A DNA stretch of 33,988 bases from a virus. Under the pieces are notes generated by a model. That model had not been told where the DNA came from, searched no databases, and worked only from the letters and a program-made list of their open reading frames with translations. Where the stretch lies: positions 1 through 33,988 of the IMG/VR virus record IMGVR_UViG_3300019890_000014, one strand, 5' to 3'. Numbering within the stretch: the stretch's first letter is position 1; every line of letters begins with the position of its first letter. The translations under genes and the position numbers were made by a program. Shown here in pieces: positions 2,468-3,998 of the stretch.

Positions 2468-3481
2468 GTGACTTGGTTCAAGGTCGACGACGGGTTCTGG
2501 TCGCACCCGAAAACCGCGGCGCTGTCCGATGCCGCGCTCGCGATGTGGGTTAGGGCGGGCGCTTATTCGTGCCAGCACCTGACCGATGGGTTCATCTCGC
2601 CGGCGATGCTGCGGATGCTCGGCGAGCGCGGGTCGGTCGATGAACTTGTCGAGGCCGGACTGTGGGAGGTTGCGCCGGGCGGTTGGCAGTTTCACGACTG
2701 GAGCGAGTACCAGGAGACCGGTGAAGCGGTGAAGCGACGCCGCGAGCAGGCTCGGGACAGGCAACGACGTTCGCGCGTGCAACGCGAGAAGAAACGGCTT
2801 GAGTCACATTCGAATCCGCCTCCTGTCACGCCTCCTGTCACGCGTGACAGATTCGTGAGCGACGCGACGCGACACGAACCGACCGATTACCGCCGGGCCG
2901 ACGAGTCCGAGACTGGACGACCGTCCATCGTGCCCGTGCAGGTCAGAGGGGCGGCCGCCGATTCGGTCACGCGTGACATCACGCGTGAGTTTTCTACCCC
3001 CGACCCGACCGTAGGGAGGGTCGGGACTACGTCCCTGCCCTCCCTACCTTCAGTTGCTGACGCAACTGAAGAACTTCCCCCTCGACCCAGCGCAACAACA
3101 GACCGCGTGCCCGCGCGACTTCCACAGGGCGGACGGGAAGTCGCCGACCGCCTCAACGCCACCGCGCACTCACCCGAGGCACACAACATCGCCCGCCAAT
3201 ACGAGAAACACATCGGGTCGGCGATCCCCGGCAAGGTGCTGACCGACATCGCGCAGCAGATCGACGCGTGCCTCACGTCGGGTGTGCCACCCGAACAGAT
3301 CGGCCGTGGCCTGATCGCCTGGCACGACTCGCCGATCTCGGCCACTTCCCAGATCCCGAGCTTCGTCCACAAGGCCGCCGCCAAGTCACGCCCGCGCGGA
3401 CGCAGCAAGCCCACGAACAGCGCCCTGGACGCCCACCAGATCGCCGAGGACATGATCGCCGGAGGAATCACTCGTGAATGA
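2468..3481 (+). CDS. phage replication initiator with N-terminal winged-helix domain (lambda O-like)
   Basis: The GTG at 2468 is chosen because an AGGAGG lies about 7 bases upstream and the product begins MTWFKVDDGFWSHPKTAAL, a start common to phage and plasmid replication initiators. Residues 1-75 look like a winged-helix DNA-binding domain (ALAMWVRAGAYSCQH, GLWEVAPGGWQFHDW). A basic helix follows (KRRREQARDRQRRSR), then a low-complexity linker of about 100 residues and a helical C-terminal region (about 215-320). The linker DNA contains repeated palindromes and two abutting hairpins, annotated separately as a candidate origin. A DNA-binding N-terminus, an origin-bearing linker and a C-terminal recruitment domain is the layout of lambda O. 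The next gene looks like a helicase-loader partner and overlaps by 8 bases. Confidence 0.72.
   Translation: MTWFKVDDGFWSHPKTAALSDAALAMWVRAGAYSCQHLTDGFISPAMLRMLGERGSVDELVEAGLWEVAPGGWQFHDWSEYQETGEAVKRRREQARDRQRRSRVQREKKRLESHSNPPPVTPPVTRDRFVSDATRHEPTDYRRADESETGRPSIVPVQVRGAAADSVTRDITREFSTPDPTVGRVGTTSLPSLPSVADATEELPPRPSATTDRVPARLPQGGREVADRLNATAHSPEAHNIARQYEKHIGSAIPGKVLTDIAQQIDACLTSGVPPEQIGRGLIAWHDSPISATSQIPSFVHKAAAKSRPRGRSKPTNSALDAHQIAEDMIAGGITRE
2819..2849 (+). repeat. tandem 12-bp repeat running into a 14-bp palindrome
   Basis: CCTCCTGTCACG occurs twice in direct succession (2819-2830 and 2831-2842). The second copy runs into the perfect palindrome TGTCACGCGTGACA at 2836-2849. The half-site TGTCACG therefore recurs 12 bases apart. 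The repeats lie in the linker of the initiator gene and are candidate binding sites (iterons) for the initiator's winged-helix domain. The 12-base repeat also encodes a PPVT repeat, so part of the similarity could be a coding effect. Confidence 0.7.
2966..2988 (+). repeat. paired copies of the same palindrome core
   Basis: GTCACGCGTGAC at 2966-2977 is followed by TCACGCGTGA at 2979-2988, centres 12 bases apart. Both share the 10-base palindromic core TCACGCGTGA with the copy at 2838-2847. Three exact copies in about 150 bases, with a repeated 12-base spacing, are unlikely by chance and suggest protein binding sites. Confidence 0.7.
3011..3071 (+). repeat. two abutting perfect hairpins (cruciform-like element)
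   Basis: Hairpin 1: GTAGGGAGGG (3011-3020) pairs perfectly with CCCTCCCTAC (3038-3047), and inside it GGGAC (3023-3027) pairs with GTCCC (3031-3035) around a 3-base loop. Hairpin 2 starts at the next base: CTTCAGTTGC (3048-3057) pairs perfectly with GCAACTGAAG (3062-3071) around TGAC. Both are inside the linker of the initiator gene, downstream of the palindrome repeats. They are too perfect to be ordinary coding sequence and fit an origin structure or an mRNA regulatory structure. Neither is followed by a T-run, which argues against a simple terminator. Confidence 0.75.
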
Positions 3482-3998
3482 CATCGCCGCGTCTCAGAAG
3501 TCCATGCGCGCTGCCGCCGCCGCATGGTCCCGAGCCCGCATCTACGACGACAAACTCGGCGACCCCGACACCGCACGCCTGGCCGCATGGGCCGAAAGCA
3601 TCGAACGCTGGCGTCTCGACGCCCCCGACCTGCTCGAGGGCGTGAACGCCTACTACGAGGGCAACACCGCAAACCAGACGATCGGCATCGGCAATCTGCT
3701 CCATCACGCCCGCGAAGCGCGACGCCTGCGTGCCGAACGCGAGAAAGCCGCCGAGGTACATGCCGATGTCGTTGCCGCGCTTCCCCCGGGCGGCTACGCC
3801 GGTCTGCCGATCAACGCCGAAGGGCGCCCCGTCTGGGCGGCCTACGACGTGAAGGACGCCATCACCCGCACATGCCCCCGCTGCCACGCCGCACCCAATG
3901 ACGCCTGCGTCACCACACGTGGCACCGCCCAGAAAATTCCGTGCCTGCCGAGAATGACCGGCCGCACAACCATCGAGAAAGCGAACCGAAATGTTTGA
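3474..3998 (+). CDS. probable helicase-loader-like replication protein with C-terminal zinc motif
   Basis: GTG at 3474 overlaps the initiator end by 8 bases. The first half has the pattern of phage helicase loaders of the G39P/DnaB-loader type: a helix ending in AAWAESIERWRLDAPDLLEG, then VNAYYEG, then NLLHHAREARRLRAERE, where such proteins have a conserved av..hY....i.pa.v...ar..R pattern. The C-terminus has CPRCHAAPNDACVTTRG, a small zinc-finger motif frequent in actinophage proteins. Being directly behind an O-like initiator supports a lambda P-like role in bringing host DnaB to the origin. The loader call is inference from pattern and position; a generic zinc-finger protein is the alternative. 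Confidence 0.55.
   Translation: MNDIAASQKSMRAAAAAWSRARIYDDKLGDPDTARLAAWAESIERWRLDAPDLLEGVNAYYEGNTANQTIGIGNLLHHAREARRLRAEREKAAEVHADVVAALPPGGYAGLPINAEGRPVWAAYDVKDAITRTCPRCHAAPNDACVTTRGTAQKIPCLPRMTGRTTIEKANRNV

Follow-up and report, generated by a model that had tools for sequence, protein, structure and literature searches.

Replication origins usually carry an AT-rich unwinding element. To our knowledge, most actinophages have no mapped origin. The lambda origin contains iterons and an AT tract (PMC5043065, PMC7466680). The pSK41 initiator comprises a winged-helix domain (residues 1–120), a linker encoded by the ori (residues 121–199), and a C-terminal helical domain (residues 200–319) (PMC5703833). 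In the extrachromosomal mycobacterial prophages Miko, Rachaly, and Jeeves, which have RepA-like initiators, the repA region is sufficient for replication; the origin was proposed to lie in or beside repA, and no repeated motifs were reported in the region examined there (PMC7157519).

The window, i.e. the whole stretch of DNA analyzed here, is a virus record of 33,988 bases in which RecT- and RusA-like genes precede the initiator region and terminase and portal genes follow it. Its similarity to phage records over the whole window is limited to 134 bp of Gordonia phage Murp. The host is probably a Nocardia-like actinobacterium because the closest bacterial-genome relative of the window initiator, locus L081 (63% identity), belongs to a Nocardia cyriacigeorgica prophage. 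We propose, with a probability of about 0.85, that the interval 2819–3071 is the replication origin of this phage and lies inside the linker-coding part of its own initiator gene. The features concerned are the following.

2468–3481, + strand: replication initiator gene, GTG start, 337 amino acids, assigned from PHROG profiles and an AlphaFold2 model.
2819–2830 and 2831–2842, + strand: perfect tandem copies of the 12-mer CCTCCTGTCACG, with two TCACG half-sites 12 bp apart.
2838–2847: palindromic iteron TCACGCGTGA, copy 1, read from the sequence.
2854–2858, + strand: extra half-site CGTGA, 11 bp past the half-site of copy 1.
2967–2976: palindromic iteron TCACGCGTGA, copy 2, in the core cluster; conserved in loci L001, L002, and L081.
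2979–2988: palindromic iteron TCACGCGTGA, copy 3, 12 bp from copy 2.
2997–3010, + strand: C-run array CCCCCGACCCGACC, with G-runs on the − strand; shortened compared with (CCCGA)4–6 in many relatives.
3011–3047, + strand: hairpin 1, 17-nt arms with 2 mismatches, loop TAC (3028–3030); G-runs in the 5′ arm, C-runs in the 3′ arm.
3048–3071, + strand: hairpin 2, perfect 10-nt arms, loop TGAC (3058–3061); the family-wide hairpin.
3474–3998, + strand: downstream gene overlapping the end of the initiator gene, PHROG 6055/3599, unknown function; relatives L271–L273.

The product of 2468–3481 matches PHROG 2447/3926/9474, "replication initiation protein" (E 7e-43 to 3e-18), and the profiles matched in relatives include "replisome organizer," "DnaD-like helicase loader," and "replication initiation O-like." The AlphaFold2 model, for which alignment A3 (30 rows) was the input, is confident and winged-helix-like for residues 1–115 and helical for residues 222–331, whereas the proline-rich linker (approximately residues 116–221) has low confidence and is predicted to be disordered. 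The repeats and hairpins encode residues 118–202, between the modeled N-terminal domain and the C-terminal helical part, which confirms their placement in the sequence-only reading (made earlier by a model from the DNA letters). The C-terminal domain of the initiators varies among phages and matches DnaD-like, primosomal, or other profiles. In structural comparisons of the N-terminal domain, entries 4pql, 4pt7, 4pta, and 5kbj, which we take to be a staphylococcal plasmid initiator, the pSK41-type Rep, were matched at Z 6.7–6.9; these values are middling, fall within the range for unrelated winged helices, and are weak alone. Foldseek gave no match in the PDB at E ≤ 0.001, a PDB profile search gave a single, implausible match, and in Pfam 29 of 30 members of the initiator family had no match, the remaining one matching DUF7179 at E 0.008. 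The product of the downstream gene is conserved and has a CPRCH...C cysteine pattern; it is unrelated to the initiator by profile comparison and is a candidate helicase loader solely by its position, which is that of lambda P.

Relatives of the initiator were collected from 80 viral-contig loci, 55 bacterial-genome loci, and a pentamer-repeat scan, giving 173 genes, of which 146 are non-redundant. In the window, the three copies of TCACGCGTGA at 2838, 2967, and 2979 and the perfect tandem repeat of CCTCCTGTCACG at 2819–2842 are present as the sequence-only reading had described them, and TCACGCGTGA is absent from the rest of the 33,988-base record; the half-site at 2854–2858 had been missed. 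When the protein was held constant and codons were redrawn from the same gene, none of 1000 synonymous recodings contained the 10-nt palindrome three times. Repeated 8-mers cover 0.251 of the iteron region of relatives as compared with 0.101 after recoding, and 0.067 as compared with 0.050 in a control region. The iteron sequence itself varies by clade, with TCACGCGTGA in the window and GTTCG..CGAAC, TGTCCC..GGGACA, or GTTACG..CGTAAC in other clades. In the TCACG/CGTGA clade (18 genes), like half-sites are spaced 11 or 12 bp apart in 64 of 92 cases, which supports the suggestion that the 12-base spacing would reflect initiator binding. Both the window (2849–2965) and the same place in L081 have approximately 117 extra bp between two iteron clusters. 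L001 and L002 lack this stretch, which looks like a partial duplication of the iteron block. In the linkers of L006, L008, and L010, a (CCATT)n array stands before, not after, GTGA iterons phased at 12 bp, and no (CCCGA)n array follows.

Autoregulation is common among initiators, and palindromes bound by a winged-helix dimer would suit a repressor too, so that the iterons could be mainly operators of the initiator gene, or binding sites of another regulator, with the true origin elsewhere. However, the sites lie approximately 350–520 nt inside the gene, away from the promoter, their order and spacing match those of the intragenic origins of lambda and pSK41, and the array and hairpin have no obvious part in repression. 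We consider the operator explanation improbable and prefer that of an origin.

Between the iterons and the hairpins lies CCCCCGACCCGACC (2997–3010), which was missed in the sequence-only reading. The corresponding array of relatives consists of C-runs separated by spacers of 1–3 nt, mostly 2, in the order (CCC-N2)n and usually as (CCCGA)n. At least five C3 runs are present in 103 of the 146 non-redundant initiators, against 13.0 expected under synonymous recoding, and the array is confined to one strand, at least five G3 runs being found in only 1 of the 146. A scan of the viral collection with CCCGACCCGACCCGACC alone found family initiators in 44 of 80 loci among those listed, and in 41 of these 44 the array lies on the same strand at +360 to +670 nt of the initiator. 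There is no AT-rich element beside the iterons; the most AT-rich 20-mers of the gene reach 11/20, at approximately 2787, before the iterons. A canonical quadruplex in the window would need the runs of hairpin 1 because only two full C-runs precede that hairpin. Two other structures were considered for the array and rejected: (i) single-strand binding with a fixed period, since the spacers vary (mostly 2 nt, also 1 and 3) and run-based structures fit better, and (ii) a homopyrimidine triplex, since the spacers include purines. In the linker of Gordonia phage Clown (L265), a tract of the AAAGAC type, rich in purines like that of lambda, stands in place of the C-run array, and a hairpin with a TTAC loop comes after it. 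In the Propionibacterium freudenreichii phages B3, Anatole, B22, E1, and E6 (L257; offsets 366–555), the initiator gene ends prematurely, inside the iterons, and a (CCCGTA)n array and a hairpin (10-nt arms, 22-nt loop) lie beyond its stop codon, outside the annotated gene; in phage B3, the +1 frame is open across the array, so that "non-coding" is not strict there.

The hairpins had been described as two abutting perfect ones. They do abut, and that at 3048–3071 is perfect, but that at 3011–3047 has 15 of 17 positions paired; its 3′ arm (3033–3048) is a series of C-runs that had also been missed. Among 300 recodings of the initiator gene, a perfect arm of at least 10 nt arose in 8 and an imperfect hairpin as good as 3011–3047 in 2. 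The segment 2995–3080, folded as single-stranded DNA, has a predicted energy of −25.5 kcal/mol (z = −8.6 relative to shuffles). In the family, a hairpin with arms of at least 7 nt occurs within 84 nt past the array in 56 of 133 non-redundant initiators, as compared with 5.6 expected from synonymous recoding, a count that covers small loops only, some clades carrying other hairpins or none. Over 4 kb in 50-nt bins, hairpin density per locus is 0.48 in the bin after the array, approximately 0.1 in the two bins just upstream of it, and 0–0.05 in nearly all others. The hairpin is strand-specific because the loop starts with T on the coding strand in 51 of the 56, T having had no part in their selection. 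Among 65 hairpins that were picked for T at the start of the loop, 63 have a C-G closing pair, and the loops are TAAA (19), TGAC (18), TAAC (9), TAC (6), and rarer forms. The stem sequences change from phage to phage with complementarity kept, and because loop, strand, and position are fixed while the stems change freely, a function in DNA is indicated.

The sequence-only reading also regarded a double cruciform beside the iterons as unusual. The doubling is indeed special, but many members of the family carry a single hairpin at this position. The pair of the window recurs in L081, where the first hairpin likewise occupies part of the C-run tract. Because the loop of hairpin 1, TAC, is one of the loop forms of the family, the "double cruciform" is, judging from these relatives, two hairpins of one class and a clade-specific doubling found in the window and L081. 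After the array, the Corynebacterium-type initiators of L027, L040, and L049 have GCCAGCC(A)...(T)GGCTGGC arms enclosing a loop of approximately 25–30 nt and have no small-loop hairpin; this large-loop form may be a second class of hairpin.

About half of the initiator genes lack the small-loop hairpin or have a different one. On the tree it is present in 59 of 133, with 39 changes, at least 27 of which are forced by supported branches. It is thus repeatedly lost or regained, always in the same place, and is not essential everywhere. A patchy distribution of this kind, together with the resemblance of hairpin 1 to an inverted duplication of the C-run tract, might be expected if the hairpins had been left behind by, or were targets for insertion of, a small mobile or recombination element. 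That origin for them is very improbable in our view: the position after the array, the strand, and the loop are fixed, the stem sequences differ among phages, and TGAC, TAAC, TAAA, or TAC loops were not seen after C-run arrays in loci that lack an initiator.

Alternatively, the hairpin, and perhaps the array, could act as RNA in the initiator mRNA, for example in control of translation or transcription. The loop is on the coding strand, C(UNAC)G is a stable RNA tetraloop, and TGAC, TAAC, and TTAC loops with their C-G closing pair fit UNAC. The TAAA and TAC loops, however, do not. RNA helices tolerate G.U, yet of 79 helices past the array with at least 6 contiguous Watson-Crick or G.T pairs, 64 contain no G.T, as compared with 105 of 832 in controls from the same genes, and the few post-array helices that contain G.T have other loops; the near absence of G.T pairs from the stems favors a structure in DNA rather than in RNA. 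The hairpins match no Rfam family, RAGATH-31 alone being recovered at 20.1 bits (gathering threshold 71.8; E 0.7), and they do not form a standard rho-independent terminator since there is no T-run past the hairpin, where the sequence from 3072 onward is AACTTCCCCC. A role in the mRNA would also leave the adjacent iterons and the fixed order unexplained. We judge such a role to be an improbable account of these features, about as improbable as the operator explanation, and continue with that of a DNA element.

In most relatives, the linker-coding region contains, in this order, palindromic iterons phased at 11–12 bp, the C-run array, and, in about half, the small-loop hairpin, the 5′ arm of which ends in C and the loop of which is mostly TAAA, TGAC, TAAC, or TAC. 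The module recurs in many diverged phages of actinobacteria. When the window is compared with L081, 28 of the 29 shared residues in the core (2966–3071) use the same codon, as compared with 98 of 159 elsewhere (p = 7e-5). Array-encoded peptides vary by clade (PDPTR-type, PSHPIPSHPS, or PVPVP) with the C-runs kept.

These data bear on a further alternative, that the repeats are a by-product of a repetitive proline-rich linker (PDPTR, VTRD) and have no DNA function. All of the elements are in frame, the linker is predicted to be disordered and is rich in proline, and in 48 of the 56 hairpins the T of the loop falls on the third codon position, as such a by-product would allow. Recoding for the same protein nevertheless removes arrays, hairpins, and iterons, which largely refutes it; moreover, the arrays favor the otherwise uncommon CGA codon (126 of 166 Arg codons inside arrays against 434 of 3571 elsewhere), the C-runs persist where the peptides differ among clades, and synonymous sites are frozen in the core. 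The chance that the linker protein accounts for the repeats is very slight. Within the limits of sequence comparison, these results show that the ordered module of iterons, C-run array, and strand-fixed hairpin is selected at the DNA level, independent of the encoded protein.

Recoding, codon identity, and repeat coverage thus agree that the repeats are retained at the DNA level in related initiator genes whose linker proteins have diverged, the comparison that the sequence-only reading had proposed, and its placement of a putative phage origin inside the initiator gene is supported. The cumulative GC-skew that it also proposed to examine gave no such support: within the window the skew follows gene blocks and has no minimum at 3000 such as an origin would give. 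Such an array and hairpin are missing from the named phages Redi, Jebeks, Shipwreck, SF3, and Pumpkin, although their initiators belong to related PHROGs. No description of the array sequence, of phage-origin G-quadruplexes or cruciforms, or of hairpins in the initiator genes of actinophages was found in the open-licence literature, and the three-part DNA pattern seems to be undescribed so far, although a search of open-licence papers only is not proof of absence.

A mechanism can be envisaged in which the N-terminal winged-helix domain would bind the iterons approximately one helical turn apart and assembly of the initiator complex would melt the neighboring DNA. The − strand of the array, which is rich in G and capable of forming a G-quadruplex, might then help to hold the bubble open instead of an AT-rich unwinding element. 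The hairpin would fold on the exposed + strand, where its T-first loop may mark the entry of helicase or primer-making machinery, and the exchangeable C-terminal domain would bring that machinery. This specific role of the hairpin is the least certain part of the scheme, and the odds are somewhat against it. That host DnaG would prime directly at the C-T-G or C-T-A of the loop is an attractive idea, these being the primase start sites in E. coli and B. subtilis, but it is disfavored, the start site reported for M. tuberculosis DnaG being 5′-GC(G/C)-3′ (PMC12839067). A bolder and rather unlikely interpretation is that the module represents a new origin class of GC-rich phages, present in many actinobacterial families, in which a tract acting as a G-quadruplex, or as a single-strand guide for the initiator, replaces the AT-rich element and a T-loop hairpin signals the entry of helicase or primase.

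As a sequence signature, the module predicts the origin to approximately 100 bp in many phages, including Gudmit, Cerasum, and Vondra, which are cultured phages of laboratory hosts. With it, the opening of a GC-rich origin that has no AT-rich element becomes accessible to experiment. The module is also a clear example of a DNA element superimposed on the coding sequence of a protein linker, and it could yield new small replicons for actinobacterial genetics.

Compared with the systems described at the outset, Miko RepA was rejected as an experimentally tested relative, being a different-looking protein with no C-run array on inspection. The pSK41-type RepA_N initiators have an intragenic ori and, judging from the predicted model of the window initiator, apparently share its three-part plan with nearly the same borders, but show no sequence relationship to it in Pfam and PDB profile searches. 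Their Rep boxes favor A+T-rich DNA, whereas the iterons and array of the window are G+C-rich, and neither a C-run array nor a T-loop hairpin is mentioned for pSK41 in PMC5703833. The lambda ori lies at the equivalent place, as the sequence-only reading had stated, with iterons at offset 348–432 of gene O as compared with approximately 351–520 in the window gene. In lambda, the iterons are followed by a strand-asymmetric tract and then by the imperfect inverted repeat ATTCGTCAGA-GAAT-TCTGGCGAAT, and the order in the window is the same. However, the lambda tract is AT/purine-rich (78% AT) and its iterons are 18–19 bp long, whereas the window has a GC-rich C-run array and half-sites every 11–12 bp, and the window hairpin, with its T-first loop and two copies, is of a class of its own, unlike the lambda repeat. 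With neither the AT-rich element of the one nor the RepA_N sequence domain of the other, the proposed origin is filed as a member of neither type; since an adjacent AT-rich unwinding element is lacking, it is best described as working like the lambda origin rather than as being one.
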